A stretch of DNA of 64,000 nucleotides, from NCBI RefSeq assembly GCF_014195325.1, contig NZ_JACIBK010000002.1, forward strand, positions 434,001 through 498,000, in the 5' to 3' direction. The first letter of the stretch is position 1. Each line of letters opens with the position of its first letter. The notes under the pieces are model-generated. The model saw only the letters and a list, made by a program, of their open reading frames with translations. It was not told the DNA's origin and made no database searches. Shown one piece after another: positions 6,848 through 21,153 of the stretch. A program made the position numbers and the translations under genes. The stretch comes from Rhizobium sp. BK650 (GTDB lineage Bacteria; Pseudomonadota; Alphaproteobacteria; Rhizobiales; Rhizobiaceae).

Positions 6848-6887
6848 CATTCCTCCTCGTGAAGACCCGAAATTCAATAAATACTAT

Positions 6888-8390
6888 TCAGAGTGTGGCG
6901 CCGAGATGCCACGGGACGAATTCGTTGTCGCCGTAGCCGAAGATTTCACTTTTCGTCTTTTTGCCCGAGGCCGTCTCGACGATCAGATCGAAGATCTCGC
7001 GGCCCTTGCCGCTGATCGTCGCATCGCCCGTAACGATCGTGCCGCAATCGATGTCCATGTCCTCTTCCATGGAGGCATAGAGCGCCGAATTGCTGGCGAG
7101 CTTCAGTGAGGGGGCGGGACGACAGCCGAAGCAGCTGCCGCGGCCGGTCGTGAACGCGATCATGTTCGCGCCGCCGGCCACCTGGCCGGTGGCCGAAACC
7201 GGGTCGTAGCCGGGCGTATCCATGAAGACGAGGCCGGGGGCCGTGACGCGCTCGGCATAGCCATAGACCGCAGTCAGCGGCGAGCGCCCGCCCTTGGCAA
7301 CGGCGCCAAGGGATTTTTCCAGAATGGTCGTCAGCCCGCCGCGCTTGTTGCCCGGCGATGGGTTGTTGTCGAGCGAAGCGCCGTGCAAAGCCACATAGTC
7401 TTCCCACCAGGCGATCTTCTCGTCGAGCTTTTTGGCGACCTCGTCGCTGACCGCGCGGCTGCGCAGCAAGTGCTCGGCACCGTAGATCTCCGAGGTTTCC
7501 GAAAGGATCGCCGTACCGCCGGCAGCTGCCAGCAGATCGGCAGCAACACCGAGCGCCGGATTGGCGGTGATGCCCGAAAAGCCGTCGGAGCCGCCGCACT
7601 GCAGGCCGATGATGATCTCGCCGACGGATATAGGCACGCGCTTTTCCCGGCCGACATCGGCAGCAATCTCGCGCAACACACCCATGGCGCGCTCGACCGC
7701 GCGGCGCGAACCGCCGGCATCCTGAATGTTGAAGTGCCGCTTGGAGGCGCCGGCTCCGCTCTGGCCGTAGAGGGTGAGCTGGTTGACCTCGCAGCCGAGG
7801 CCGATCATCAGCACGCCGCCGAAATTGACGTGGCGGGTGTAGCCGGCAAGAGTCCGGTGCAGCACGTTCATGCCGTCGCCGGTCGAGCTCATGCCGCAGC
7901 CCTGGTCGTGAACGATCGGCACGAAACCGTCAATGCCGTCGTAATGCGGCAGGATGGTGCGGTTGGCCTCGTCGGCGATTGCCCGGCAGACCGTGGTGGA
8001 ACAGTTCACGCTGGCGATGATGCCGATATAGTTGCGTGTCGCAGCGCGCCCGTCGGCACGGCGATAGCCCATGAACGTGCGCGCCTTGTCATCAGCACTT
8101 GCTTCTTCCGGCGCGGAATTGGCCGTTGCCGCAAGCCTGTCGTTCTCGAAATGGAGATTATGGCTGTGCACGTGGTCGCCCGCTTTTACATCGGCAGTCG
8201 TGCGGCCGATCGCCTGGCCGTATTTGACGACCGGCATTCCCTGCGGAATGTCCGTGATGGCGATCTTGTGGCCGGCGTCGATCTTCTGCCGCGTCTTCAC
8301 ATTGGCGACATCGGATCCTTCAGCGATTGGTGCCGTTGCGACCGCGACATTGTCTCCGGCCGACAGGATGATCCAGTTCTGTCTGTCCAA
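6888..8390 (-). CDS. UxaA/GarD-family sugar-acid dehydratase (probable L-fuconate or altronate-type)
   Basis: 500 residues from a TTG at 8388-8390 preceded by GGGAGAAG; no ATG fits, and upstream in-frame ATGs lack ribosome sites. The N-terminus is a SAF domain (IILSAGDNVAVATAPI to about residue 80). The rest is the UxaA catalytic region with NCSTTVCRAIAD, HDQGCGM, GLGCEVNQ, GLQCGGSDGFSGITANPA and FTTGRGSCFG. E. coli altronate dehydratase is 495 residues. These metal-dependent enzymes remove water from hexonates. Next to an aldose dehydrogenase and FucU, the substrate is likely L-fuconate or a close relative, a role usually filled by enolase-superfamily FucD. An operator-like site lies 56 bp upstream. 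Confidence 0.87.
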   Translation of the reverse strand: MDRQNWIILSAGDNVAVATAPIAEGSDVANVKTRQKIDAGHKIAITDIPQGMPVVKYGQAIGRTTADVKAGDHVHSHNLHFENDRLAATANSAPEEASADDKARTFMGYRRADGRAATRNYIGIIASVNCSTTVCRAIADEANRTILPHYDGIDGFVPIVHDQGCGMSSTGDGMNVLHRTLAGYTRHVNFGGVLMIGLGCEVNQLTLYGQSGAGASKRHFNIQDAGGSRRAVERAMGVLREIAADVGREKRVPISVGEIIIGLQCGGSDGFSGITANPALGVAADLLAAAGGTAILSETSEIYGAEHLLRSRAVSDEVAKKLDEKIAWWEDYVALHGASLDNNPSPGNKRGGLTTILEKSLGAVAKGGRSPLTAVYGYAERVTAPGLVFMDTPGYDPVSATGQVAGGANMIAFTTGRGSCFGCRPAPSLKLASNSALYASMEEDMDIDCGTIVTGDATISGKGREIFDLIVETASGKKTKSEIFGYGDNEFVPWHLGATL

Positions 8391-8445
8391 TTTCTTCTCC
8401 CTAGGGAAGCGTTCGCTACATCGGCGAAATGCGCATTGATTTTGT

Positions 8446-8467
8446 TTTTTATCTACAATAAACATTT
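8446..8467. promoter_or_regulatory. Putative operator of the sugar cluster (site 2) overlapping a promoter
   Basis: TTTTTATC plus TACAATAAACATTT, matching site 1 at 19 of 22 bases. On the minus strand a TTGACT hexamer (8471-8476) is followed 17 bases later by GATAAA (8448-8453), so the site covers the -10 and spacer of a likely dehydratase promoter. Such placement suits a repressor. Confidence 0.55.
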
Positions 8468-8519
8468 TCAAGTCAACGGGAATATTGATCCTGTGGACGA
8501 GGGAGGCAAACAGCCGCAT

Positions 8520-8545
8520 GCGACTGAAAATAAGATAAAAGTCGC
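8520..8545. promoter_or_regulatory. Inverted repeat in the divergent regulatory region
   Basis: GCGACT and AGTCGC arms separated by 14 A/T-rich bases, between the dehydratase promoter and the GntR-family gene. It could be a second regulator site or a leader hairpin of the regulator message; nothing further can be said. Confidence 0.3.
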
Positions 8546-8640
8546 TTGAAGAGGCTCCTGGTCCGGCTATGCCCGTTCTCGGCGGCGGGCATCATCGCCG
8601 CGTCGCCAGGACCGTCGGGTTGGGCGGAAAGCAGGGTCTG

Positions 8641-9537
8641 ATGGCAAGACAGAATACGGTCTTCAAGGAAGCGTATAATCGATATGCGGCAGCGTTGCGC
8701 CTGGACACAGCGCTGCCTTCGGAGCCCGAAATTGCCGCCCAGCTCGGCGTCAGCCGCAGCACGGCGCGCGCCATCCTGACCCGCCTCAGCGACGAAGGCA
8801 TCATCCGCTGGAACAAGCGCCAGAAGATCGTGCTGCGCCAGCCGACCGATCGCGACTTCTTCCCCTCGGAAGAAACCGACTCACTGCACGACATCATCGA
8901 GCGCAGCTTCATGCAGCGCATCCTTTCCGATGAGGCCGCACCCGGCATGCAGATCAACGAGCTGGAGCTCGCCCGCGAGATCGGCACGGGCACGACGAGC
9001 GTGCGCGAATTTTTGATCCGCTTTTCCCGCTTCGGGCTGATTGAAAAACGCCCGAACAGCCATTGGACGCTGAAGGGCTTTACCCGCGAATTCGCCTTGG
9101 AACTCGCGGACGTGCGCGAAATGTTCGAGCTGCATTCGGCCGCCGAATTCGGCAAGCTTCCCGCCGACCATCATGCCTGGGCCGATCTTGCGGCGATCAA
9201 GGCGGAGCATACGTCCGTACTCTCCGATATCGACGACCGCTTCAAGGAATTCTCGGCCCTCGACGAGCGCTTCCACCTTTTGATCCACCGCGCTTCGAAG
9301 AATCGCTTCATCGCCGATTTCTACGACGCGATCGCCATCATCTTCCACTATCACTATCAATGGAACAAAACGGCCGCCCGTGATCGCAACGAGCGTGCGA
9401 TCTACGAACATCTCGATTATATCGCAGCCCTTGAAGCTCGCGATCAGGCAAAGATCGAGGCCGCCTGCCGCGTCCACCTTCGCTCGGCGCGGCAGACGCT
9501 GCTGCAGTCCATCCCGCAGACGACGGAAAGTATCTGA
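8641..9537 (+). CDS. GntR/FadR-type regulator with two winged-helix domains and FCD domain
   Basis: 298 residues from the ATG at 8641. Residues about 8-66 form a GntR winged helix (LPSEPEIAAQLGVSRSTARAILTRLSDEGII). Residues about 80-138 form a second one (INELELAREIGTGTTSVREFLIRFSRFGLIEKR). Residues about 150-285 form the FCD ligand domain, with likely metal ligands in DERFHLLIHRAS and CRVHLRSA. The protein is divergent from the sugar cluster and is its likely regulator. Most FadR-type proteins have one winged helix, so the duplication is unusual. The ligand may be a sugar acid; this is inference. Confidence 0.85.
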   Translation: MARQNTVFKEAYNRYAAALRLDTALPSEPEIAAQLGVSRSTARAILTRLSDEGIIRWNKRQKIVLRQPTDRDFFPSEETDSLHDIIERSFMQRILSDEAAPGMQINELELAREIGTGTTSVREFLIRFSRFGLIEKRPNSHWTLKGFTREFALELADVREMFELHSAAEFGKLPADHHAWADLAAIKAEHTSVLSDIDDRFKEFSALDERFHLLIHRASKNRFIADFYDAIAIIFHYHYQWNKTAARDRNERAIYEHLDYIAALEARDQAKIEAACRVHLRSARQTLLQSIPQTTESI

Positions 9538-9563
9538 ATTGTCATCATCAAGGGTGTGCCGTG

Positions 9564-9688
9564 TGGCCCCCTCATCCGCCCTTCGGGCACCTTCTCCCCG
9601 ATGGGTAGAAGAGGGAATCGAGACGCCGCGGCATGTCCCTTCGCCCCACAGGGGAGAAGGTGGCCCGAAGGGCCGGATGAGGGGGCCA
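9564..9688. repeat. RIME-like rhizobial palindromic element
   Basis: Long inverted repeat: the left arm 9564-9599 contains CCCTCATCCG, CCCTTCGGG and CCTTCTCCCC; the right arm 9651-9688 carries the complements GGGGAGAAGG, CCCGAAGGG and CGGATGAGGG. The core, a CCTCATCCGGC / CCACCTTCTCCCC palindrome, is characteristic of Rhizobium intergenic mosaic elements. It fills the space between the convergent GntR and exporter genes and could act as a bidirectional terminator. Confidence 0.8.
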
Positions 9689-9719
9689 AACCCACCGATT
9701 CCAACCGATCAGCTCTATT

Positions 9720-11213
9720 CTAACGCGACGCCGCCTCGCTCGCCGCACCTCCCGCACCTTCGCTCTTCACCCCCCGGCCGATCGGAATGAGCCAGGTCGT
9801 CGCAAAGGTCAGCACCGCCACGACGACGACGCCCCAGAAGCTCCAGTGCAGCGCCGCATCGAAGACGCCACGCACCGCCGGATCGCTTGCAAGCGCCGAG
9901 AGGCCGGTCGGCTCGTTGAGGACATCGTGCAGGCGGTCCGCCGCTGCACCCGTCGCATAATGATCGATCCCGGCATTGAGGATCGCGCCGAGCACGGTGG
10001 CGCCGAGCGTATTGCCGAGGCTGCGGGCGAAGATGATCGAGGCCGTGGCGCTGCCGCGCATCGACCATTCCACGCTGTCCTGCACCAAAGCGATGCTGGT
10101 GAGGTTGATGAGCCCCATGCCGAAGCCCATGAAGAAGGAGCCGGCGCCGGCGACGGCCGGATGGCTTTCCGGCGTGAGGAACAACAGAAAGAAGGCGCCG
10201 AAGGGGAACATGAAGCTGCCGACCCTCAGCGTATTGCGGATGCCGAATGCCCTGAAGAAGCGGCTCGACAGCATCACCGACAAAGGCCAGCCGACCACGA
10301 GCATGGTGAGCGTGAAACCGGCGACGATCGACGAGCGGCCGAGCACGCCCTGCACATAGAGCGGCAGGATCGTCGATAGGCCGATCAGCGCCATGCCGGC
10401 GAGCAGCATGCAGGCATTGCTGGTTGCGACAAGCCGCCGGCTCCACAGCGCAATCGAAATGATCGGCTCCGGCGTGCGCTTCTCCTGCAGCACGAACAGG
10501 ATGCCGGTGACGACGAAAACGATCACCAGCGAACTCAGGAACCAGCCCGGCGCGCTCGTTTCCGTCAGGATCGTCAACAGCGCGATGATGGAAATCGAAA
10601 ACAGGATGGCGCCGAGATAGTCGATCCTGGCGTTCTTATGCGCCACGTCCTCCTTCAGGAAGATCAGGAAGGCGATGATCGACAGGACGCCGATCGGCAG
10701 GTTGATCCAGAAGATCCAGGCCCAGGAGATCGTATCGACGATAATGCCGCCGGCGAGCGGTCCGACGACCGCCGAGGTTGCCCAGACCGTTGCCATCACG
10801 CCCTGCACCTTGCCGCGCTCTTCGAGCTTGAACAGGTCGCCGATAATAGTCATCGTCACAGGTTGGATCGCACCGGCGCCAAGCCCCTGCACCAGACGGA
10901 AGACGATGAGCGAGGCCATCGACCAGGCCAGCCCGCAAAAGAGCGAGCCGACGAGGAAAACGAGGATGCCGCCGATCAGCACCGGCTTGCGGCCGAAAAT
11001 ATCCGAGAGCTTGCCGTAGATGACCGTCGTCGTCGACTGCGCCAGCAGGAAGGCGGAAAAGACCCAGCTGTAATAAGTGAAGCCGCCGAGCTGGCCGACG
11101 ATCCGCGGCATGGCGGTGGCAACGATCGTGGCCTCGATCGCTACCATGAAGGTCGCAAGCATGATGGTGGCAACGACGAGCGTGCGGTTGGATCGCTGGG
11201 TAGTGGCGGACAT
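9720..11213 (-). CDS. MFS drug exporter, DHA2 (EmrB/QacA) family
   Basis: 497 residues with about 14 hydrophobic segments, the DHA2 layout. Motif A is GKLSDIFGRKPVL near residue 67 and motif C, typical of antiporters, is SAVVGPLAGGIIVD near residue 150. The N-terminal ATFMVAIEATIVATAMPRI matches the family D1 motif, with A/E in place of the usual D. It probably expels a hydrophobic toxicant in exchange for protons across the inner membrane. No membrane-fusion partner or TetR regulator gene lies beside it, so the substrate is unknown. The start ATG follows GAGAGG. Confidence 0.9.
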   Translation of the reverse strand: MSATTQRSNRTLVVATIMLATFMVAIEATIVATAMPRIVGQLGGFTYYSWVFSAFLLAQSTTTVIYGKLSDIFGRKPVLIGGILVFLVGSLFCGLAWSMASLIVFRLVQGLGAGAIQPVTMTIIGDLFKLEERGKVQGVMATVWATSAVVGPLAGGIIVDTISWAWIFWINLPIGVLSIIAFLIFLKEDVAHKNARIDYLGAILFSISIIALLTILTETSAPGWFLSSLVIVFVVTGILFVLQEKRTPEPIISIALWSRRLVATSNACMLLAGMALIGLSTILPLYVQGVLGRSSIVAGFTLTMLVVGWPLSVMLSSRFFRAFGIRNTLRVGSFMFPFGAFFLLFLTPESHPAVAGAGSFFMGFGMGLINLTSIALVQDSVEWSMRGSATASIIFARSLGNTLGATVLGAILNAGIDHYATGAAADRLHDVLNEPTGLSALASDPAVRGVFDAALHWSFWGVVVVAVLTFATTWLIPIGRGVKSEGAGGAASEAASR

Positions 11214-11256
11214 GAGAACCTCTCGGGCTTTCTCAGCGAGACGGGTGTCGACTACA

Positions 11257-11357
11257 GCATCGGTCTGAAAATCGGAATCGATTTTCAGAAAGCCTGATGC
11301 GTAGCTTCAGAAAGCTAGAGCGTCCTTTGTGCGTCCGAATGGACGCACGGCGCTCTA
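11257..11357. repeat. Rhizobial intergenic double-hairpin repeat (copy 2)
   Basis: Contains TGAAAATCGGAATCGATTTTCA-type palindrome (11266-11287) and a second hairpin (11317-11356) with arms AGAGCG / CGCTCT and inner GTGCGTCC / GGACGCAC. The whole element is the reverse complement of the copy at 46884-46962. It lies in the 461-bp space upstream of the exporter gene. The rest of that space holds a perfect palindrome (GGCGGGTACCCGCC, 11511-11524) and no convincing gene. Confidence 0.8.
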
Positions 11358-11510
11358 GTGGCCAAGTTGCAATGCGTGATGTCGGCAGTCTTTTATGCTC
11401 CTGCTGGTAGCAGGTAAAGCGCAAGTGAATCCTTTCTACTATATCGACGAGTTAAACTGCTTCCGGCCCCGGCAAATTTCAAATACAAGGCATTTTGCGA
11501 AGGAAGTTTT

Positions 11511-11524
11511 GGCGGGTACCCGCC
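11511..11524. promoter_or_regulatory. Perfect 14-bp palindrome of unknown role
   Basis: GGCGGGTACCCGCC, flanked by TTTT on the left and GGAAAA on the right, 150 bp before the glycosyltransferase gene. It could be an operator or a bidirectional terminator core; the sequence alone does not decide. Confidence 0.3.
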
Positions 11525-11674
11525 GGAAAAGGAGATCTGGCAGGCTGCCAGGGCTCTCGGATGTCAGGATTGCATTTCCGCCAGGTTATTCCCAACTGAA
11601 AACCTGACGCAGGCCTGTGAACCGGTCCATCGCGGATGCGAAGGGTTCGGGTCCGGGCACGGAAATGGCAAGAT

Positions 11675-12517
11675 ATGATGACGCATGTTTTGGCCGCGAG
11701 CGGCGGCGTTAAACAGGTAATTTGCATCAATTGGGGTACGAAATACGGACCGACTTTCATCAACCGGCTGTATGCGATGGTGGCGCGCAACATCACGCCG
11801 CCCTTTACCTTCACCTGCTTCACCGACTGCCGGGACGATCTCCATCCCGCCATCCTGTGCGAGGACCTGCCGCCTCTGGACGTTAAGATGCCCGTCAATA
11901 CGAGAGGCATCTGGCCGAAGGCGATGCTTTGGGGACCGAAACTCGGAAGCCTGAGCGGGCCGGTCCTCTATCTCGACCTCGACCTGGTCGTCGTCTCTTC
12001 CCTTGACGGCTTTTTCGAAGTCGGAGGCCCTGACGATGTCGTCATGGCCCGCAACCAGACGACGCCTTTCGAAAGGCTCGGCCAGAGCTCGCTCTTTCGC
12101 TTTCCGGTCGGCAAGCTCCTGCCGCTGCAGGAAAAGTTCAGGGCCGACCCGCAGAAGGTGGCCGACGAGTATCAGTACGAACAGCGCTTCGTTACCCGCA
12201 ATGCACCCGGAGGCGTGAAGTTTTTCCCGCGCCGGTGGGTTCTGCACTTCCGGCAGGACTGTCACTGGGCCTTTCCGCTGAACTATTTCCTCGCCCCGCG
12301 CCTGCCCTCCAGCGCCCGCGTCGTCCTCTTCCCGCGCGGCTTCCATCCGCAGAACGCCATCGAAGGGAAATTCGGCCCGAGAGGCCGGGCCGAAACCAGG
12401 CTCGAGCACATCAAGCGTGTCGTCCACGCCAGCCAACGCGACGGCAAGCCGCCCTTCCGCTACCTGCGCCACTATATCCTGCCCACGCCCTGGGTGGCCG
12501 AGCACTGGCATGAGTGA
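11675..12517 (+). CDS. Putative glycosyltransferase with DxD motif
   Basis: 280 residues from the ATG at 11675 (another ATG follows at 11678), with GGAAATGG 10 bases upstream; earlier in-frame starts give an arginine-rich, non-protein-like N-terminus. The GPVLYLDLDLVVVSSLDGFF segment is a GT8-like nucleotide-sugar and metal site (DLD), preceded by KAMLWGPKLG. No transmembrane segment or signal peptide is seen, so it is probably cytosolic. It may act in surface polysaccharide or lipopolysaccharide modification; a GT39-type gene lies 600 bp away on the other strand. The fold call is moderate and the acceptor unknown. Confidence 0.65.
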   Translation: MMTHVLAASGGVKQVICINWGTKYGPTFINRLYAMVARNITPPFTFTCFTDCRDDLHPAILCEDLPPLDVKMPVNTRGIWPKAMLWGPKLGSLSGPVLYLDLDLVVVSSLDGFFEVGGPDDVVMARNQTTPFERLGQSSLFRFPVGKLLPLQEKFRADPQKVADEYQYEQRFVTRNAPGGVKFFPRRWVLHFRQDCHWAFPLNYFLAPRLPSSARVVLFPRGFHPQNAIEGKFGPRGRAETRLEHIKRVVHASQRDGKPPFRYLRHYILPTPWVAEHWHE

Positions 12518-12594
12518 CGGCCAAACTTTCCGATTCAGCGGAACAATTTCTCGCTTTAAATGTTCACTGCCCAGGAAAATCCCTGGGTGCTCTC

Positions 12595-13098
12595 ATGCGT
12601 CCTTTTCTGTTCGCAACGTCGCTCTCGCTCGCTGGCCTGGCTGCCGGCGCCAATGCGTCCGAGGCAGATTTTCTCAATTCGCTGGCAGGCGACTGGAGCG
12701 GAACCGGCATGGTCCTGACCAGGATCGGCGGCGCGAAAGTCAATGTCTCCTGCAATCTGAAATCCGATGCGAGCCCCTCGACCGTTGACATGAATGGCAG
12801 CTGCCGCGGTCTCGCCTTCATCACAAGAAGCTTTACGGCCAATGTGAAGGCAGCCGGCCAACGCTACACCGGCAACTATACCGGCCCCTCAGGCCTGCCT
12901 TCCAGGCTTGTCGGCAGCAGGAAAGGGGATGCCCTGACCTTCGATATCACCTGGGCGCGTGTCACCAATGGCGACCGAAGCGCGAATATGATGATCCAAA
13001 AGGTGGGTCAGAACGGGCTTCGCCTGCAGACCATCGATCGCGATCCTGTGTCGGGCCGGTCCGTGGTGACGAGCCGCATCGATCTGCAGCGCGAGTGA
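12595..13098 (+). CDS. Secreted hypothetical protein
   Basis: 167 residues from the ATG at 12595, which begins a clear signal peptide (MRPFLFATSLSLAGLAAGANA-SEA); the frame is open further upstream but without signal features. The mature part is a small beta-rich domain starting FLNSLAGDWSGTGMVL, with two cysteines (VSCNL and GSCRG) that could form a disulfide in the periplasm. The LAGDWSGTG start resembles lipocalin-like small periplasmic domains, but no family can be named firmly. It follows the glycosyltransferase gene by about 80 bp and may be cotranscribed. Confidence 0.7.
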   Translation: MRPFLFATSLSLAGLAAGANASEADFLNSLAGDWSGTGMVLTRIGGAKVNVSCNLKSDASPSTVDMNGSCRGLAFITRSFTANVKAAGQRYTGNYTGPSGLPSRLVGSRKGDALTFDITWARVTNGDRSANMMIQKVGQNGLRLQTIDRDPVSGRSVVTSRIDLQRE

Positions 13099-13120
13099 GG
13101 GCGTTAAAAGATGCGGGCGG

Positions 13121-14692
13121 TCATCGCACCGCAGATCCATCCGACAGCGGTCCGTCGATCCAGGCATAGCCGAGGGAAAAGACATGCTTGGGATTTCCGT
13201 AGAGATAGGGCAGCGTCAGGGCCTGTGTTTCGGGCAGTTCAATCCCAGCTGCCTGCAGGCGGGCTGCAAACTCCGGTGGAATCGTCGCGTCGCTCGCCGT
13301 GCGGCCGCGCCAGACGATGAGCACCGGTCCATCGGCGCGTGCGTAGCTGCTCGTTTGAGGATCGGGAAAATCGGGTAAGACGGCAGGCACGTCGGGCCAT
13401 TGCAGGCGAATATTGCCGGCCAGGTATTTGTTCGATGCGATGACGAGAACCGGCTTCCGGCTTTCGCCCAATCTTGATGCGAATTCCGCCATCGGTACGT
13501 TGAGGATCGGATAGCTCCCAAGGAGGCCGGCCCCGACGATCCTGAGGGTCAACACCGATACGATAATGACCATCGCCACCGGCACGATCGGCAGAAAACG
13601 GCGAATCCCGGCCGACATATCGAAGCCCGCAGCCTGCATTTTCAGGAAAAGGGTGATCGGCAGGACGAGAAGAAACGGGTCGAGCCACCGTTCATGAATA
13701 TGACTTGCGCCGCCGATGATGACGATGACGACCGAAAGCAGGCTTGCCGCCATCATGCGTTCGATCAATCGTATCAGGGGGCTGGTTGCCCTGAGAGCGC
13801 GGAAAAAATCGCGCCGGAAGCAGGCTGCAAACACGGCAATCGGCAGTGCCGTGAAACCGATGATGGCAATGAAGAGTGAGACAAGCCCCTGGCCGATCCG
13901 CAGGATCGCGCTCCCCGCTTCGTGGTCGGCGGTCATCCGCTCGAGGGTTGCAGCCGAAGCGCTCTCGATGTTGTCCGGCAGCCACAGCGCATGCGGCAGA
14001 ACGATGAGAATGGCAACGGCAATCGCGACGAGCATGCGCCAGTCAAAAAGATGGCGGCGCCACTGTCTGTCCGGCAAGACCGCAAGGAAAGCCGCAGCCG
14101 GCAGAATGGCGAAATTATATTTGGCGATCAGCCCGACGCCGACGGCGATGCCGACCAGCAGATAGGAGGCAAGCGTCGGCCGCCGAAGCGTCCTGAAAAA
14201 ACCGTAGAGAAACAGCGAGGTCGCAACCAGAAGCGCCACGGTGTGGGTAAGCTCGCGCTGCGCGAGAAAGCCGACCTGCGGCAGGATAATAAGGCTCAGC
14301 ATGGCAATGGCTGCGAGCGACTTGTCCTTCAGCGCTTCTCGTGCGGCAAAGCCATAGAACAGATAGCAGAGAAAAAGTAGGATGTTTTTGGGAACCACGA
14401 GCGTCCAGAGCGACAGGCCGGCCACCGAAACGACCGCATATTGCAGCCAGTTGTAGAATGGCGGCTGCGGGCCGTAGCCCAAGAGGAGAAACTGCGAGAA
14501 GAACGCCTGCTCGGATTCATCAAGGCCGAGCGTGTCGGGCTGTATCAGGCGAAGCACGATGTTGAGAACGAAATAGCCCGCCAGGAAAAACCCTGCCGCC
14601 GCAACGCTTTGACCAATGCCGGAGAGCACCGATCCGCGTTCGGCAATCACATTTTCCCCGCCCGGCGAGGGCAACGTGCTTTCAATTGTCAT
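13121..14692 (-). CDS. GT39/PMT_2-type membrane glycosyltransferase (ArnT-like)
   Basis: 523 residues, mostly hydrophobic with about 10-12 membrane segments. The first periplasmic loop carries [33 protein letters not shown], the acidic (DE) and P-F-YNW features of PMT_2 glycosyltransferases that use polyprenyl-phosphate sugars. The last 130 residues form a soluble periplasmic domain ([23 protein letters not shown] onward). Such enzymes add sugars to lipid A, proteins or envelope lipids at the outer face of the inner membrane. It stands alone on the minus strand; the donor and acceptor cannot be read from sequence. Confidence 0.8.
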
Positions 14693-15113
14693 GATAGGCC
14701 GACTTGAATGGAGAACATTTAGGGGAGGGTTCGTTGCGATATGTCGTTCGGCCTTGGCCTCGTCTTATGCGATGCGGCATCTCCGGCCTGACCTGGGCCA
14801 AGCCCGAGCCAGTCAGTCATTTCTCTCATCGTCGTCGGTCCCCCGGCATTCGCAGGTCGTCTCCTGACAGATCGCAACATGCGGTCGCAAATAGCAAGCC
14901 TGTCGCGGGTGGAGATATCAGTAAGTCGGGGCTGAAATTTTCAGGCGTGGCACAGCGGCCACAGGTTGCCGCCGTGGATCCTGCCTGTGATTGGACATCC
15001 CTTGAGCAATGCCGTTAGCGCACCGGCATGGGTCCCGTTGAAATACATCGCATTTCTTATAATCAACCGTCGCCGCGCATCCTGCTTCTGATCGGAAGTT
15101 CAGAGGAACGAGC
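14693..15113. other. Gene-free stretch at the left side of the accessory island
   Basis: About 420 bp with short overlapping reading frames of poor composition and no convincing gene. The tRNA-Thr 3' sequence found at 21078-21153 is not repeated here, so no attachment site was recognised. The AlpA-like gene starts at its right end. Confidence 0.5.
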
Positions 15114-15347
15114 ATGACTGGCAAGACAATCCCCTACACACTCTTAAGCACGAGCGACGTTCAGAAGATCGCTCCGGTTTCGAACGTGACGCTCTGGCGC
15201 TGGGTGAGGGACGGCAAGTTTCCCGCGCCCATACAGGTCGCGAAAAACAACTTCTGGAGGTCCGACGAAGTCGGCGCCTGGATGGATGAAATGTCCTTGA
15301 GGCGCGTTGCGTCAAATCCGAAAGCCCCTTCTCAGGAACGCGAATAA
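15114..15347 (+). CDS. AlpA-family DNA-binding protein (small MerR-like helix-turn-helix)
   Basis: 77 residues. The layout LLSTSDVQKIAPVSNVTLWRWVRDGKFPAPIQVAKNNFWRSDEVGAWMDE matches AlpA/phage excisionase-like regulators: helix-turn-helix (VSNVTLWRWV), wing with FPAPI, then WRSDEV. Such proteins activate integrase or replication genes of P4-like satellites and integrative elements. It lies 32 bp upstream of the primase-VapE gene, probably in one operon. No integrase gene is present in the window, so the element is either degraded or uses a remote recombinase. Confidence 0.85.
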   Translation: MTGKTIPYTLLSTSDVQKIAPVSNVTLWRWVRDGKFPAPIQVAKNNFWRSDEVGAWMDEMSLRRVASNPKAPSQERE

Positions 15348-15379
15348 GCGTCGGCCCCCCAAGTTTCATCGGAAAATCC

Positions 15380-17911
15380 ATGGATAGAATCTCGCAATAC
15401 GCGCCATCGCAGGCGGCGGGCGTCTCAGGCTGCGTCGAACGGCTGCGCCGCGACGTTTCCCTGTCTTCGACAGCAGCGCAATACGGCTGCAAGCTTACCC
15501 GCAGCGGGCAGGAATTTTCCGCCTGCTGCCCCTTCCACGCCGAAGACACCCCGTCGTTCACGATCTTCGCCGGCCAGGATGGGATCGAGCGTTTCCAGTG
15601 CTTCGGCTGCGGCAGGAAAGGCGATGTCCTCGACTTGGTGCAGGAGGTCAGAGGCGTCGATCTTCAGGGAGCGATCCGCATTCTCGGCGGCCGCGACGAC
15701 ATCAGGCCGAACGTTCCCGCTCGGCATGTCCAGGCGGGGAACATCTATGAGGGGCTGGTGCCCCTTCCGCCGCCGGCCGGTCTGCTTCAGGCCGGCCGGC
15801 GCATCACGCTCTATAATCCGAAACGCCGGGGGACGCCCTCGGAATGGGGCACCTTCGCCCCATCGATGGTCTTTCCCTATCGAAAGGCCGATGGCTCGCT
15901 GTCAGGTTATGTCCTGCGCCGGGATCTGCCTGATGGCGGCAAGGAGACGCCGATGGTCATGTTCGTTCGCCTCCCCGATGGCAAAGAGACCTGGTCGCGC
16001 TTCCCCTTCCCGAAGCCGCGGCCGCTCTACGGGCTGGAAACGATCGGCGACGGCAAGCAGGTGGTGATCGTCGAGGGCGAGAAGTGCCGCGACCGGCTCA
16101 GCCAGGCGAGCGGGCGAACCGTCGTCTCCTGGCCGGGCGGAACCCAAGGCGCAAAGCACACGGACTGGTCGCCGCTCTCGGGTCGGCACGTGCTGATCTG
16201 GCCGGATTTCGACGGTCCGGGCCTGGCGGCTGCCGATGATATCGCCGCCCGCCTGACCGCGGTCGGCGCGCATGTCCAATGCGTCGCCTTCACGGATGCG
16301 GCGCACGGGTCCGATATCGAGCGCTACCGTTTCGACGATTGGCGGGCCGGCCGTTTTCCACGCCGCGGCTGGGACAGCGCCGATGCCGTCGATGCCGGAT
16401 GGACGCAAAGCCAGCTCGACGCCTTCATGAGCGCCACGCTTCGCGACTGGAGGCCAGAGCCGCTTGCTGAGATGCCCGCTGCCGAGATGGAGCCCGTTTC
16501 TGAGATGGAGGAGCGGCGCGTCGTGCAGTTCAATCGGACAATTTCTGTGCAGGCCTCCATAAGCGCACGTCCCGAGCCGGTCCCGGATGCGTTCGCCCAA
16601 GACCCATATGCGTTCGAAGGCCCAGATGCGTTCGTCCAAGACGATGAGCCGACGCGGGCGATCACGCCTGCCGGGGATGCGCCCCGGAATTTCGGCCGCC
16701 TGATGGGCATCGCGCGCTTCGATATCGAACTCGAACAATGGTTGGTCGATCGCCAATGGTTCATCAAGCTCAACCTGCTTTCGGGCGAGTTGGAGATCCA
16801 TCGTGACAGCGGCATCGTTCCCATGAGCGACGCGCGGCTGGCGGAAATTCGCTTCGAGCTCGCCCGCGCGGCCCGGGGCAGGGAGTCGTCCAAGGACAAC
16901 ATTGTCGATGCCCTGGTGCTGATCGGCGAGCGGCGAGCCTACCATCCGGTGCACGACTATCTCGCCCGTGTCAAATGGGATGGAAAGCCGCGCATCGACA
17001 CCTGGCTCGTCGATTATTTCGGCGCTGAGGACTCGGCCCTCAACCGCGCCTTCGGCCGCAAGATCCTCTGCGCCGCCGTTCGCCGCGTCAGGCATCCGGG
17101 CTGCAAATTCGATCATATGCTTGTCGTCGAAGGCCCTCAGGACATCGGCAAATCCTCCGCCGTCCTGGCGCTCTGCCATGACGGCGACTGGTTCACCGAC
17201 CAGCTCGAAATCGGCGCCGATGCCAAAGTGACCATCGAAAAAACTGCCGGCCACTGGATCCTGGAAATGCCCGAACTCGACGGCCTGAGCCGCCGCGACA
17301 TCAACCGCGTCAAATCCTTCATCCCCGCGCGGAAAGATGTCGCCAGGCTCTCCTATGGCCGCTTTGCGACCAAACGCCCACGGCAATTCGTCCTCTTCGG
17401 CACCACCAACGAAAGCCGCTATCTGACCGACACCACCGGCAACCGCCGCTTCTGGATCGTCCGCGCCAAGGCTGCTGATCCCACGGGCATCGCGGCGGCG
17501 CGAGACCAGCTATGGGCGGAGGCTGCGGAGAGGGAGGCGGATGAGAACCTGTGGCTCGATGACCCGGCATTGCGGAATGCAGCGGCTGGTGTTGCGCATG
17601 AGGCATCGGATTTCGGGCCTTGGCTGGAAATCCTTCGCGAGCGCATTCCGGAAGGTCCGCTGAAGATCAAGGCCACGGATGCCTGGAAGCTCGTCGGCTT
17701 CGACGGGCCGGAGACCATCAATAAGCTGACGAAGGCTCATCACGCCCATATGCGTGCGGCGATGGTCGGCCTTGGGTTCGAGAAGAAGGATAAAGGCATC
17801 CGCTTTCGCGACGGCGAGAGAAAGACGGCCTATCTTCGCGGCGATCCGGACGACGCCCGGGAATGGAGCCCTCACAGTCACGCGCCGGCATATGGCGACG
17901 ATCCTTTCTAA
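15380..17911 (+). CDS. Primase-helicase of a mobile element (CHC2 zinc finger, Toprim-like, VapE domain)
   Basis: 843 residues. The N-terminal CHC2 zinc finger has C50, H53, C74 and C77 (CCPFH ... FQCFGCGRKGDVLDLV). A Toprim-like region follows (VVIVEGEKCRD near 227, LIWPDFDGPG near 272). An acidic, low-complexity linker with repeated PDAF motifs spans about 360-430. The C-terminal VapE ATPase holds Walker A GPQDIGKSS near 584, EMPELDGLSRRDINRVKSF and FGTTNESRYLTDTTGNRRFWIV. Proteins of this layout prime and unwind DNA for phages, satellites and integrative plasmids. A terminator and a dense repeat array follow directly, as expected of a rep gene beside its origin. Confidence 0.9.
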   Translation: MDRISQYAPSQAAGVSGCVERLRRDVSLSSTAAQYGCKLTRSGQEFSACCPFHAEDTPSFTIFAGQDGIERFQCFGCGRKGDVLDLVQEVRGVDLQGAIRILGGRDDIRPNVPARHVQAGNIYEGLVPLPPPAGLLQAGRRITLYNPKRRGTPSEWGTFAPSMVFPYRKADGSLSGYVLRRDLPDGGKETPMVMFVRLPDGKETWSRFPFPKPRPLYGLETIGDGKQVVIVEGEKCRDRLSQASGRTVVSWPGGTQGAKHTDWSPLSGRHVLIWPDFDGPGLAAADDIAARLTAVGAHVQCVAFTDAAHGSDIERYRFDDWRAGRFPRRGWDSADAVDAGWTQSQLDAFMSATLRDWRPEPLAEMPAAEMEPVSEMEERRVVQFNRTISVQASISARPEPVPDAFAQDPYAFEGPDAFVQDDEPTRAITPAGDAPRNFGRLMGIARFDIELEQWLVDRQWFIKLNLLSGELEIHRDSGIVPMSDARLAEIRFELARAARGRESSKDNIVDALVLIGERRAYHPVHDYLARVKWDGKPRIDTWLVDYFGAEDSALNRAFGRKILCAAVRRVRHPGCKFDHMLVVEGPQDIGKSSAVLALCHDGDWFTDQLEIGADAKVTIEKTAGHWILEMPELDGLSRRDINRVKSFIPARKDVARLSYGRFATKRPRQFVLFGTTNESRYLTDTTGNRRFWIVRAKAADPTGIAAARDQLWAEAAEREADENLWLDDPALRNAAAGVAHEASDFGPWLEILRERIPEGPLKIKATDAWKLVGFDGPETINKLTKAHHAHMRAAMVGLGFEKKDKGIRFRDGERKTAYLRGDPDDAREWSPHSHAPAYGDDPF

Positions 17912-17928
17912 CGCGCACCGACCCTGAC

Positions 17929-17954
17929 AACCCGGCCATCGAGCCGGGTTTTTT
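17929..17954 (+). terminator. Rho-independent terminator after the primase gene
   Basis: 8-bp GC-rich stem AACCCGGC / GCCGGGTT with a 6-base loop and a run of six T, 17 bp after the stop codon. Confidence 0.9.
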
Positions 17955-17970
17955 GTTTCCCTGGGAATGC

Positions 17971-18136
17971 GAACCTCCGCCAGGCAACCTCCTCCAGGCA
18001 TGGAACCTCCGCCAGCGAAGGCAGGTTTTGGCGGAGGTTCGTGGAGGTGGAGGAGGTTATGGAGGAGGTAACCTCCGCCGGGGTAAGTAATTGATCGTAA
18101 ATTGTTATCACCTGCTGGAGGAGGTGGAGGAGGTTG
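17971..18136. repeat. Dense ACCTCC/GGAGGT repeat array, candidate replication origin
   Basis: Units AACCTCCGCCAGGC (17972), AACCTCCTCCAGGC (17986) and AACCTCCGCCAGCG (18004) run in one direction. GGCGGAGGTT (18030-18039), GGTGGAGGAGGTT (18046-18058), GGAGGAGGT (18061-18069) and GGAGGAGGTGGAGGAGGTT (18117-18134) run in the other. The first two are spaced 14 bp apart. 18004-18014 and 18029-18039 can pair as an 11-bp hairpin. A/T-rich DNA (18084-18108) lies between the last clusters. An iteron-type origin for the adjacent primase-VapE protein fits, but binding has not been shown. Confidence 0.65.
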
Positions 18137-18164
18137 TTTGCTGAAAGGTACCGCAAGCTGGGTT

Positions 18165-18192
18165 TTGCCGGCTTTATTGGGCGAAATATAGG
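18165..18192 (+). promoter_or_regulatory. Possible promoter of the XRE gene
   Basis: TTGCCG (18165-18170), 16-bp spacer, TATAGG (18187-18192). Transcription would begin at about 18199, right where the first 17-bp repeat lies, leaving a leader of about 105 bases before the XRE gene. Confidence 0.4.
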
Positions 18193-18197
18193 GTGCT

Positions 18198-18214
18198 TCC
18201 GGCTACTCTTGGAA
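18198..18214. repeat. 17-bp direct repeat, copy 1 (possible operator)
   Basis: TCCGGCTACTCTTGGAA, identical to 18689-18705 except one base (G/A). This copy precedes the XRE gene and the other follows it, ahead of the DUF4238-like gene. A shared binding site of the XRE protein is one reading; a recombination scar is another. Confidence 0.45.
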
Positions 18215-18304
18215 AACGCGCTTTAACCTACGCCACCTCCGCCGCGGATCGATGGCGCGGCTTGTCGGCCCACGCGGGGACATCTACAAGGGATAGAGAA
18301 ACAC

Positions 18305-18652
18305 ATGGGTGAGCTTACACGATTGACTATCGAGGGGAAGGATTACGTTCTTCTCCCTGAACCGGACTATCAGGACATGATCGACATCAGGGACGCAGCC
18401 GCCGCACAAGCCAGGATCGCGGCCGGCGAGGAAACCTGGCCCGAAGAAGTCGTCGGCGCTCTCGTTGCCGGCAAGCATCCGGTCAAGGTCTTCCGCAAAT
18501 ATCGCGGCATGACGATGGCCGAGCTTGCGGCGGCGGCGACCCTATCGCAGCCCTATGTTTCCGAAATCGAAAGCGGCAAGAAGAGCGGATCGATCGACGC
18601 GATGAAGGCGATCGCGGTCGCGCTGAACGTCGACCTGAATGACCTAGTTTGA
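18305..18652 (+). CDS. XRE-family regulator, antitoxin-like
   Basis: 115 residues. The N-terminal half (LTIEGKDYVLLPEPDYQDMIDIRDAAAA) resembles Phd/antitoxin N-termini. The C-terminal half is a helix-turn-helix of the Cro/C1 type (YRGMTMAELAAAATLSQPYVSEIESGKKSGSIDAMKAIAVAL). This arrangement is common in antitoxins that follow a RelE/ParE toxin gene, but no toxin gene lies directly upstream or downstream. It may regulate the neighbouring island genes or be an orphan antitoxin. ATG start; ribosome site AAGGGATAGAG is 7-17 bases upstream. Confidence 0.8.
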   Translation: MGELTRLTIEGKDYVLLPEPDYQDMIDIRDAAAAQARIAAGEETWPEEVVGALVAGKHPVKVFRKYRGMTMAELAAAATLSQPYVSEIESGKKSGSIDAMKAIAVALNVDLNDLV

Positions 18653-18688
18653 TGCCGATCTTTGCGATCAGGAAGGGGAACCACCGCA

Positions 18689-18705
18689 TCCGGCTACTCT
18701 TAGAA
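18689..18705. repeat. 17-bp direct repeat, copy 2
   Basis: TCCGGCTACTCTTAGAA, 37 bp after the XRE stop codon and about 176 bp before the DUF4238-like gene. See copy 1 at 18198. Confidence 0.45.
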
Positions 18706-18880
18706 CAATTCGTTCTCCGCCGCCGTTGCCTTTTCACGACGCAATCGCGGCTTTTGATGATCCGAGCCGATGTGTGTTCGAACGGCTGGATCGAAGGTGA
18801 GTTTTGGCCGCGTCGCCCCTATATCCCGCTTTATCCGAATCTCTTCTTTTGAGAGAATGTAGGAGTTGGGCACGGGGGCT

Positions 18881-19843
18881 ATGCTGGGCGGCGGATCAAA
18901 ATCCAGAGAACATCACTGGTGGCCTGTGGGGCTACAAAAATTTTGGGCAGATAAAAACGGCGATCTAGCTTGGATATCACCGCAAGGAAAGATCGACAGA
19001 AAGCGCGTTCGAAACCGCAAGATTGCCAAGAAGGCCCACGGGCACACCATCTTTCATGGTCAGGTTTGGGAAACCAATTTCGAGGGTGACTTTCAATCCG
19101 TCGATGATGCCGCGCCCCAAATTGTCGAGACGTTGCTGGGCTTCAAACCGTTCGGCCTAACACCTAGCGAAGCCCTGCATATGTTTCGGCTCCTATTCAA
19201 GCGTGATCGGCATCTTAGGGATACATGTCGATTTTACAACCTTGACGAAAATACAAACCGGAAGCTTTTGCTACTTATCCTATCGCTATTGATTAGGGGT
19301 CCAGGCAATCGTTTCCGATACGAAAACTACCCCCAGCTGGTCGGCTTGCCGCCTAATGAGAACGTTGGCAAGTTGAATATGCGGCAAGCCTATTCGCTTG
19401 CTAAGCGGCAGTGTGAGACTGGTTCCCTCTCAAATCGCTATTACGTTTTGCTCCATTCGCCTTGGAAGCGGTTTGTTTTCGGCGACGGACAATTTGATTG
19501 GCTATCTCAAGGGCTCAACGGCTATCGGATTGATGGCCGAGCGCTGATGCCGCTCACGCCTCATTTGTGCATATATGTTTGCACGCCCAGATCTATGCGG
19601 GTCACGCCGAATTGCGCCTCGTTCCTGGCCCCGCCATGGATGGTGGATGAGGTGAACGAGATGATCCAAGCCTGTTCGAAGGACGCAATTTACTTCATGG
19701 GATCGCAGCCAAAGTTGATGCCTGCCTTCATTGAAGGGCAATTTCTTCGGCACAATCGTCCGAACAATTACCTGATAGACCTCCTGGACGAAGTTGCCGG
19801 AAACACAAGGCCGCTGTCATCTTTGATAAGTTGGACGGCCTAG
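18881..19843 (+). CDS. DUF4238-like protein of unknown function
   Basis: 320 residues from the ATG at 18881; a TTG at 18866 could add five residues and has no better spacing. The start EHHWWPVGLQKFWADKNGDLAWISPQGK matches the HH-P-LxxF-D-G opening of DUF4238, and the FGDGQFDWL and MPLTPHLCIYV segments correspond to its later conserved strands. No signal peptide or membrane segment is seen. The base composition is more A/T-rich than chromosomal neighbours and codon use is mixed, suggesting transfer. It is followed by a DUF3800-like gene 300 bp away. Function is not known; a defence or element-maintenance role is only a guess from location. Confidence 0.65.
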   Translation: MLGGGSKSREHHWWPVGLQKFWADKNGDLAWISPQGKIDRKRVRNRKIAKKAHGHTIFHGQVWETNFEGDFQSVDDAAPQIVETLLGFKPFGLTPSEALHMFRLLFKRDRHLRDTCRFYNLDENTNRKLLLLILSLLIRGPGNRFRYENYPQLVGLPPNENVGKLNMRQAYSLAKRQCETGSLSNRYYVLLHSPWKRFVFGDGQFDWLSQGLNGYRIDGRALMPLTPHLCIYVCTPRSMRVTPNCASFLAPPWMVDEVNEMIQACSKDAIYFMGSQPKLMPAFIEGQFLRHNRPNNYLIDLLDEVAGNTRPLSSLISWTA

Positions 19844-19971
19844 CCAAAACGGCCGCCAAGGGCAATCATCTGCAGGACCTGGCGGACCGCCGGTTCATAG
19901 ACTTCATACTAGGCAGCCCGCCAAGGTCGCTTATCAGTTTCAGCTACCACTTTCTTATTTGTTCAGCGTGA
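19801..19971 (+). pseudogene. Possible coding remnant after the DUF4238-like gene
   Basis: In a frame different from the DUF4238-like gene and overlapping its last 43 bases, the DNA reads KAAVIFDKLDGL, then AKTAAKGNHLQDLADRRF and IDFILGSPPRS, to the TGA at 19969-19971. The composition is protein-like but there is no good start. It could be a 3' remnant of a lost gene or the original C-terminus of the upstream protein after a frameshift. Confidence 0.3.
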
Positions 19972-20139
19972 TGTAATTAAATCGACCATTCCCGTTTCGA
20001 GTGCAACGCTAATGGCAATTACATATCTTCTACCTCTTGCAACTTTTACCGCCGTTGCGTATTTAGGTTTCGGAGTTGCGGAACAAACGCCGCGCTCATT
20101 CAGGGGCCCGTGCTTTTCTAGGTGCGGGCTTCCGCGTTT

Positions 20140-21015
20140 ATGATATTTGCCTATCTCGATGAGTTTGGCCACGCTGGGCCGTATTACGGGCGAAACCATC
20201 CTCGTTTCAACACCAGTCCTGTTTTTGGCCTCGGTGGATTTCTCCTTCCTGAGAATGCGATCCGCCCATTTGCAACGCGGTTCCTAAAACTGAAAACTGC
20301 ACTGTTGGCGCCCGAAATAGAGAAATCAGACAAGCAAGCTTATGAGTGGGAAAAAAAGGGCTCAAATCTTTTTACCGCCAACTCGATCGTAAGATACCCA
20401 CACATTCGCGCTGCAATGTTCCGGTTGATCAACGAGATAAGGAATTCATCCGGCAAAGTTTTCTACTCAGGTCGGGAGAAGATCCGCGACACTGAGGACG
20501 TCCGCGCAAATGGCCTTTATACTACGGTTTTTGCGAACGCCATCAGGCAGATCGATGCGTATTGCGAAAGCATTGACGAGAGCTTTGTTTTGATCGTGGA
20601 CGAACACTCTTCGAGAAAAGAACTCCTGGAAACAGCGGCCAAGACAATGTTTGGTCACACACCGGTAAGGCGACTATTGAGCCCGCCTTTTGAGGTCGAG
20701 AGCTACCTCAATCAGAATATCCAAGCCGCTGATTGGGTTGCGACAATCGTGGGTCGCATGTGGAACCACAAGATTGACGCCGATTTCGACAACTATGCTC
20801 TTTACGAAAAGTACTTCTGGACACGTATCCATTCAGTGGCGACGCACAGCACCGTCATGCAGCGTCCCAAGAAGAATCCGCTCCCCGACACCTCGTCGGA
20901 GGGGGCGCTCGCTTCTGCACTAAAGAAAGCACTTAAAGAGAAAGCGGGATCTAAGGTCACTTCTGTTGAAGCCGATCTTGTCCACGTCTCAATCAAAACC
21001 GCAACGCTGGACTAG
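20140..21015 (+). CDS. DUF3800-like protein, putative RNase H-like nuclease
   Basis: 291 residues from the ATG at 20140; a GTG at 20122 could add six residues. The N-terminal YLDEFGHAG corresponds to the Y-[IL]-D-E-[SF]-G motif of DUF3800. LIVDEHSSR near residue 150 and the NIQAADWVATIVGRMW motif near 200 supply the later acidic and Q-A-D residues. This set suggests an RNase H-type metal-dependent fold. Codon use is A/T-richer than the surroundings, as in the DUF4238-like gene. DUF3800 proteins are frequent in mobile elements and defence islands; their substrate is unknown. Confidence 0.75.
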   Translation: MIFAYLDEFGHAGPYYGRNHPRFNTSPVFGLGGFLLPENAIRPFATRFLKLKTALLAPEIEKSDKQAYEWEKKGSNLFTANSIVRYPHIRAAMFRLINEIRNSSGKVFYSGREKIRDTEDVRANGLYTTVFANAIRQIDAYCESIDESFVLIVDEHSSRKELLETAAKTMFGHTPVRRLLSPPFEVESYLNQNIQAADWVATIVGRMWNHKIDADFDNYALYEKYFWTRIHSVATHSTVMQRPKKNPLPDTSSEGALASALKKALKEKAGSKVTSVEADLVHVSIKTATLD

Positions 21016-21077: not shown

Positions 21078-21153
21078 TGGTGCCGCTTACGTGACTCGAA
21101 CACGTGACCCCATCATTACGAATGATGTGCTCTACCGACTGAGCTAAAGCGGC
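21078..21153 (-). tRNA. tRNA-Thr (anticodon CGU), CCA encoded
   Basis: Minus-strand cloverleaf: acceptor stem GCCGCTT / AAGCGGC, D-arm AGCTCAGTCGGTAGAGC, anticodon loop TTCGTAA within CATCA / TGATG, T-arm with TTCGAGT, then A and CCA at 21078-21080. The 3' end faces the accessory island, a common integration point, though no duplicated tRNA end was found. Confidence 0.97.

Follow-up and report, generated by a model that had tools for sequence, protein, structure and literature searches.

The window analysed here, the whole stretch of 64,000 nucleotides examined, comes from Rhizobium sp. BK650 (NZ_JACIBK010000002.1, positions 434,001-498,000) and contains, at window positions 15114-21015, an island adjoining a gene for tRNA-Thr(CGT). 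The left part of this island, on the plus strand, is a conserved module (approx. 15037-18260) composed of an alpA-like gene, a gene encoding a CHC2-VapE protein, a terminator-like stem, and an iteron array, and it occurs at the same tRNA-Thr locus in 8 of 148 genomes of the genus (a set that includes the window's own genome, G000; other G numbers denote compared genomes, and L numbers denote extracted loci). The module is followed by genes for an XRE-type regulator, a DUF4238-like protein, and a DUF3800 protein, the last of which stops 62 bases from the 3' end of the tRNA gene (21078-21153). This gene, identified by a tRNA call and locus comparison, serves as the integration site of elements in relatives; as it lies on the minus strand, its 3' end faces the island. 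The parts named in a preliminary description of this DNA indeed sit at these coordinates, and the A/T richness that it ascribed to the last two genes is borne out by a drop in GC content from approx. 0.6 to 0.51 and 0.50 across the DUF4238-like and DUF3800 genes. Taken as a whole, the AlpA-VapE-iteron stretch is probably the replication module of a satellite resembling Staphylococcus aureus pathogenicity islands (SaPI) or P4, or of a prophage, which has been kept vertically at an integration hotspot.

The first gene of the module (15114-15347, plus strand) encodes an AlpA/excisionase-like helix-turn-helix (HTH) regulator of 77 amino acids, which matches phrog_66 (3e-9) and, below the Pfam cut-offs, HTH_17 (8e-6; 26.5 bits, cut-off 27) and Phage_AlpA (0.001; 19.3 bits, cut-off 21). 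The second gene (15380-17911, plus strand) encodes a protein of 843 amino acids that combines a CHC2 primase-type zinc finger (PF01807, 3e-18) with a VapE helicase domain (PF05272, 2e-67). The VapE part matches PDB entry 7pds, 'Similar to D. nodosus vapE' (E 4e-37), and the protein thereby provides the VapE-type helicase expected of a replicon of the type found in SaPI and other phage-inducible chromosomal islands (PICI). In the same protein, Pfam gave no match to the alpha primase-helicase family PF03288 at E 0.1. The CHC2 and VapE matches, like those of HTH_3 and DUF3800 described below, exceed the Pfam cut-offs by a wide margin, which supports the replication core proposed earlier, as that of a satellite or a prophage; the Toprim domain that had also been proposed was not called by Pfam, although primase matches from other libraries span the region. 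A terminator-like stem with a T run (17929-17950, plus strand) lies 3' of the primase gene; in a comparison of folds with shuffled sequences, one such stem was found versus 1.2 expected, and alone it is not significant. The Pfam scan covered 16 window proteins around the feature, further small open reading frames being outside the scan. Among these 16 proteins, neither an integrase nor a capsid or other phage structural family was found, as the preliminary description had stated in regarding the element as a remnant rather than a complete one. In the same proteins, psu, sid, delta, and epsilon had no Pfam match, the sid search having had no profile. Moreover, when up to three mismatches were allowed, 24 bases from the 3' end of the tRNA gene matched the window at a single place.

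Next to the primase gene lies the iteron array (17970-18253), a type A array with 10 copies of GGNGGAGGT in both orientations. By pattern count, these 10 copies fall within 349 bp, the remaining 63.6 kb of the window having a single copy. Of the seven modules with a well-kept array, six have 8-11 copies of GGNGGAGGT in approx. 350 bp and 0 or 1 copies elsewhere in the locus; the module of G143 has none and instead carries seven copies of GGAYGGGGT (type B). In six modules, 12 of 91 iteron columns are variable versus 74 of 171 spacer columns (p 4e-7, columns treated as independent). Within most arrays, iterons of both orientations have one common variant. The array is a putative origin, and we infer that VapE binds its iterons. 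AlpA is less likely as the iteron binder, given that G143, with its type B module iterons, shows no change in the AlpA HTH region. As for VapE, 5 of the 15 changes specific to G143 fall within the last 44 residues (p 0.001; 0-2 in other species); as a determinant of iteron type, however, this C-terminal clustering is weakened by residue 805, which is also changed in G171, a species with type A iterons. The idea that one resident protein fixes the iteron type throughout the genome was rejected, as G143 combines its type B module with a type A array at another site (S1, see below). A blastn search of 72,556 plasmid and 50,697 phage records gave no match to the array, and neither did one exact pattern run on viral contigs; we know of no present-day replicon with these iterons.

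A search of the 148 genus genomes with the CHC2-VapE protein revealed some relative at E <=1e-60 in 21 of them. In seven genomes besides the window's own, the best match is 84-91% identical over the whole or part of the protein, and in all eight carriers the module adjoins the same tRNA-Thr(CGT), being intact in six and halved in two (G098 and G171). The DNA of the module is 85-91% identical among carriers, except for an alpA fragment in G171 (79%), and both borders are sharp: the shared stretch begins approx. 80 bp 5' of the alpA-like gene and stops just past the last iteron. Within a clade of 14 species, which we chose because their long right flank was matched in both halves at approx. 80% or more (among the matches listed), the module is intact in six and halved in two, is represented by its start only in four (G157, G148, G027, and G153, the last also with a decayed array), and is missing from the tRNA-Thr locus in two (G159 and G014). 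Across the six intact copies, the mean synonymous divergence (dS) of vapE is 0.256 versus 0.275 for the flanking NMO gene, and the ratio of nonsynonymous to synonymous divergence (dN/dS) is 0.28 versus 0.08. The alpA-like gene has a mean dN/dS of 0.23 across six species, and the linker region of the VapE protein (amino acids 361-450) has values of 0.3-1.0. These rates fit vertical inheritance accompanied by purifying selection, which is less strong than that acting on the flanking gene. The comparison of loci thus agrees with the preliminary description that the module is accessory in the genus; its further proposal that core and cargo arrived as one unit is not supported, since the core was inherited in place at a flank-like divergence and the cargo differs between carriers.

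The genes on both sides of the module turn over from species to species. On the left, a PMT_2 glycosyltransferase gene (13121-14692 in the window, minus strand) occupies this place in just two of the 14 clade loci examined, those of the window and G033. At this side, G135, G133, G098, and G171 have a methyltransferase-like gene together with a GGDEF/EAL-like gene (GGDEF/EAL assigned by reading), G143 has a gene for 237 amino acids, and G161 has just 51 bp. On the right, no two carriers are alike among the matches listed: the window has the XRE, DUF4238-like, and DUF3800 genes; G135 has a MerR-DUF433 gene with DUF5615; G143 encodes an Abi_alpha-like protein with a match below the cut-off; and HipA_2 kinase, FA_hydroxylase, and FkbM methyltransferase genes are found in G133, G033, and G171, respectively. 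The right-hand gene of G161 has no family assignment, and that of G098 is acyltransferase-like (by reading, unscanned). A gene for 237-239 amino acids recurs on the right in G033 and G171 and on the left in G143, and the module-free G009 has a HipA_2 kinase gene with a DUF3037 gene at the same tRNA-Thr (L035:16613-18209).

Traces of integration at this tRNA are found in relatives. Among 32 tRNA-Thr loci, the window's included, four (in G142, G066, G002, and G137) have 52-79 bases of the tRNA region duplicated. In G142, the tRNA-end copies enclose an element of approx. 11 kb with a tyrosine integrase, and in G066, two whole-tRNA copies enclose an element of approx. 7.8 kb with an integrase and a VapE relative. 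In G002 (L071) and G137 (L075), the second copy, of 52-54 bases, is 6-9 kb distant. Moreover, a 92-amino-acid gene in the cargo of G033 (L039:5772-6050), for which Pfam gave no match, is 87% identical (80/92) to one in the G142 element (L065 oriented 11981-12259). The G033 cargo also includes the leftover 3' end of a second module, which is 87% identical to the module of G143 and 84% identical to its own, lacks an array, and shares the C-terminal VapE signature GDAEEAKEW with G143. A possible remnant of the same kind lies in the window (18686-18724, plus strand), where 32.8 bits to the module end of G135 stand modestly above shuffled sequences (best 26.5 for the window's own cargo, n=15; a shuffle of G098 cargo reached 31.9). 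The tRNA-end copies, the shared 92-amino-acid gene, and the module leftovers indicate that elements reached this tRNA-Thr repeatedly and left pieces behind. Together with the changing sides, the tRNA-end copies in 4 of 32 loci, two of them with an integrase, mark the site as an integration hotspot that holds a satellite-type replication relic.

The cargo of the window begins outside the conserved module with the XRE-type regulator (18305-18652, plus strand; 115 amino acids; HTH_3 9e-11, phrog_7241 2e-22). The next gene (18866-19843, plus strand) starts with TTG, ATG at 18881 being possible, and encodes 325 amino acids; its match to PF14022 (1.3e-4) reaches 21.9 bits versus a cut-off of 27, so that the protein is called only DUF4238-like. 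The third gene (20122-21015, plus strand; ATG at 20140 is perhaps the start) encodes a DUF3800 protein of 297 amino acids (PF12686 1.6e-12, 48.8 bits versus a cut-off of 21; phrog_26069 7e-59), in which the acidic residues D7, E8, D154, and D198 are invariant, as they are in all 10 aligned sequences, the window's included. None of the three proteins was found at the other 31 tRNA-Thr loci, those of the seven other carriers included; an 86-bp DNA fragment of the XRE region is present in G033. In 397 genomes of the order, relatives of the DUF4238-like protein occur in seven and those of the DUF3800 protein in three, and both occur only in the window's own genome, so the search for co-occurrence gives no support to a joint function of the pair. 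Relatives of the DUF3800 protein were also found in 21 plasmid and 4 phage records. Of eight neighbourhoods fetched, seven were annotated, and in those seven no DUF4238 was found within 2.5-5 kb; the neighbours include BrnTA, a HEPN protein, TIR genes, caspase-family genes, and Kfr genes; the DUF3800 relative of phage phiO18P is flanked by a replication gene and the portal gene. The closest relatives, 75% and 73% identical, are in two IMG/VR contigs, in one of which the gene is fairly near an integrase-like gene (assigned by reading); no DUF4238-like relative was found in viral contigs, where close relatives only were searched for. For the DUF4238-like and DUF3800 proteins, the PDB sequence search gave chance-level matches only (best E 0.33 and 0.25), and the predicted structures were poor, with a mean predicted local distance difference test score of 38 (single sequence) and 46 (six sequences), respectively. 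In published studies, one DUF4238 protein alone gave protection against T7 (PMC9122126), and a structural model gave DUF3800 an RNase H fold (PMC10910872); both may serve as leads for the window cargo. Some of this cargo is of kinds known from defence hotspots, which makes an anti-phage action plausible, and the DUF4238-like and DUF3800 genes look like separate cargo.

Iteron arrays are not restricted to the module. A pattern search of the window's own genome revealed one more array, located on a different contig (L124:9040-9400, G000:C6:144540-144900), which lies without a primase between two ordinary genes. A sequence model derived from this solo copy together with seven module arrays was run with stricter filters on the 148 genomes and separately on 18 genomes. 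Arrays were detected in 11 of the 148 genomes, every one within the 14-species clade. Besides tRNA-Thr, three sites with matching flanks were found: S1 in ten species, between converging dioxygenase-like and GlxA-like regulator genes (names by reading), S2 in three, and S3 in two. The match between the S2 arrays and the G143 module (89-91%) begins approximately where the vapE terminator ends and extends through the last iteron. Variant A comprises six modules and the S1 arrays of seven species (two partial), variant B the G143 module and the three S2 arrays, variant C the S1 arrays of G153 and G159, and variant D the module remnant and S3 array of G153; G135 has a mixed S1 array, G159 has an S3 array that belongs to none of the variants, and several arrays have one odd copy. 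The tRNA-Thr loci of G153 and G159 are without an intact vapE, and both genomes have other CHC2-type relatives.

At S1, the identity of the arrays does not follow that of their surroundings (rho -0.13 over 28 pairs from 8 of the 10 species). In particular, the arrays of G000 and G098 are 96.9% identical versus 85.3% for the flanks, and those of G033 and G143 are 97.3% identical versus 86.0%. In the remaining 26 pairs, array identity is 72-85%, 2 to 16 points under that of the flanks; G135 and G143 share 75.9% at the array (flanks 91.6%), and G098 and G133 share 78.0% (flanks 92.3%), although these species pairs are the closest. Ten control windows on the same flanks deviate by -7 to +9 points versus -15.7 to +11.6 at the array; as the controls are mostly coding, part of the array deficit is to be expected of non-coding DNA. 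What is telling is that two pairs have near-identical arrays when even the closest species have arrays of low identity. Constraint by itself cannot account for this pattern, since in other pairs the same positions are strongly divergent; the pattern can arise by interspecies recombination or from shared alleles of great age. At S2, two of the three pairs have a smaller excess (+5.5 and +5.8) and the third has none (-0.9). Solo copies of the presumed origin thus appear, from their sequences, to have been swapped between species.

Such solo arrays might serve as decoys in immunity or as docking sites, or might be leftovers. The last possibility, that they are functionless remains of past insertions, comes somewhat short of an even chance. 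It is suggested by the S1 array being partly deleted in G014 and undetected in G157, G148, G027, and, outside the module, G171, by type B (p 0.43) and type D (p 0.65) arrays in which iteron constraint was undetected, and by plasmid and phage collections in which no replicon with these iterons was found. On the other hand, S1 iterons are less variable than their spacers, both in five type A arrays (16 of 92 iteron columns versus 94 of 207 spacer columns, p 2e-6) and between G153 and G159 (6 of 80 versus 44 of 219, p 0.009; seven column tests were run, with uncorrected p values and columns treated as independent), and the two species pairs share near-identical arrays inside diverged flanks. A more tentative proposal, to which we assign a low probability, is that solo arrays constitute a distinct kind of element, namely satellite-origin copies that lack a primase, have for the most part a single iteron variant per array, are constrained at least at S1, and are passed between species as short array-centred alleles. 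They could act as decoys in an incompatibility-type immunity, titrating the initiators of satellites or phages that come in (variants A-D being specificities), or as docking sites at which replicons without an integrase enter through homologous recombination. With a similarly small chance, the array might be a structured RNA gene or a cluster of regulatory binding sites rather than an origin. Its predicted RNA fold is strong (z -4.9), and it bears a weak similarity to the ar14 small RNA (25.5 bits versus a gathering threshold of 58.8); however, inverted repeats fold anyway, Rfam gave no family at cut-off for the stretch searched, iterons of both orientations share a variant in most arrays, and a helicase gene adjoins the array.

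The history that probably best accounts for the locus begins with a module consisting of a regulator, a primase-helicase initiator, and an iteron origin, which the common ancestor of a clade (approx. 14 species) would have acquired at the 3' end of tRNA-Thr(CGT). Its integrase and any packaging genes would then have been lost, and the module would have been inherited vertically since, remaining intact in 6 of the 14 species and being broken or lost elsewhere in the clade. The tRNA would have stayed a hotspot at which integrase-bearing elements and recombination add and remove cargo beside the module, the XRE, DUF4238-like, and DUF3800 genes being the strain's current cargo, probably single-acting and perhaps engaged in phage defence. 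The mode of work would most likely be SaPI/P4-like, with AlpA-type control, a VapE helicase with a primase-type zinc finger, and an iteron origin; present-day replication of the module and a defensive role of the cargo are what we infer. Several observations weigh against this history. Because the window yielded no integrase, attachment (att) repeat, packaging gene, or helper, the identification as a satellite depends solely on the replication genes. Ordinary phages and prophages have VapE-type and CHC2-type proteins as well, so that a prophage ancestor fits equally. The dN/dS of vapE is almost fourfold that of the flanking gene, and the window copy may be inactive, given an altered residue in its Walker A motif (17130-17165; GPQDIGKSS versus GPQGIGKSS in five aligned orthologues). 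Of 30 proteins scanned with Pfam, a set made up of cargo as well as two integrases, two left-hand genes, and others, 16 remained without a match at E 0.001, and thus the cargo cannot be termed mostly defence; neither the DUF4238-like nor the DUF3800 protein of the window matched PADLOC models. The specific claim that the module is left over from an ordinary temperate prophage and not from a satellite is unlikely, though deserving of attention: IMG/VR contigs of 46-48 kb carry CHC2-VapE relatives near an integrase-like gene (integrase by reading), and a primase locus in the window's own genome (L040) adjoins a lysozyme-like gene (by reading), but the best full-length relatives in those contigs are only 43-46% identical, the proteins scanned at the locus included no structural phage protein, and in G066 the element with a VapE relative at this tRNA spans only approx. 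7.8 kb. It is very improbable that a single, recently acquired satellite brought the XRE, DUF4238-like, and DUF3800 genes along with the replication core. The low GC content of the cargo, its position at the tRNA, and its near absence from relatives (found in 1 and 2 of 61 genomes) would suit such an event; the core, however, is common to eight species at the same place with a flank-like divergence, and the cargo proteins are missing from all other tRNA-Thr loci compared.

In SaPI/PICI replicons, a VapE-type helicase acts as initiator at an iteron origin. The module described here resembles them in its VapE-domain helicase, its primase-type domain, and a repeat array adjoining the gene; it differs in that the CHC2 zinc finger is fused to VapE in a single protein, no integrase or packaging gene was found, and the module is fixed in one place across the clade. 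The VapE-type helicase and primase roles of the SaPI/PICI replicon are set out in PMC7145576. As described in PMC8628076, P4-like satellites, whose alpha protein is detected by PF03288, share with this locus an AlpA-like regulator, a fused primase-helicase, and variable cargo, together with the tRNA site seen here. Unlike them, the module has its cargo outside, a helicase of family PF05272 rather than PF03288, and no match to integrase, psu, sid, delta, or epsilon; because integrase, packaging genes, and the alpha family were sought and not found, it is not classed as a P4-like satellite. The defence hotspots of P2 and P4 (PMC9122126) similarly have one site at which cargo differs by strain, and the DUF4238 protein that gave protection against T7 on its own comes from there; the present locus differs in its sub-cut-off DUF4238 match, its chromosomal tRNA site, and cargo known from genes alone. 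Among the results listed, literature searches, which covered few subscription papers, gave nothing that fits such arrays or the tRNA-Thr module in Rhizobium.

The locus thus presents a satellite-type origin and initiator long kept as a chromosomal fixture while the surrounding genes turn over, and it marks out a tRNA-Thr hotspot with many uncharacterised cargo genes. Moreover, origin-like arrays without a replication gene are found at conserved chromosomal places. To our knowledge, origin decoys acting as immunity are known only from cloned phage origins. If array exchange between species is confirmed, the question of whether such decoys serve as bacterial immunity becomes testable. In phage-encoded resistance (PER), a phage origin region is cloned in trans (PMC8965321), and like PER, the solo arrays have origin-like repeats without their own replication gene; unlike these cloned origins, they are natural chromosomal arrays, known from sequence alone.

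Further observations concern relatives of the same genes. In four species (L052, L056, L057, and L058), a common pair of HlyD-like and MFS-transporter-like genes lies right after the truncated module start. In G066, a different DUF3800 gene lies just outside the integrase element (L066 oriented 5891-6727 and 6878-14736). The window's own genome has three more CHC2- or VapE-type loci, L040 (C3), L041 (C2:144918), and L042 (C1:236483), two of which match the primase half of the window protein at 65-66% and the third its VapE half at 43%.

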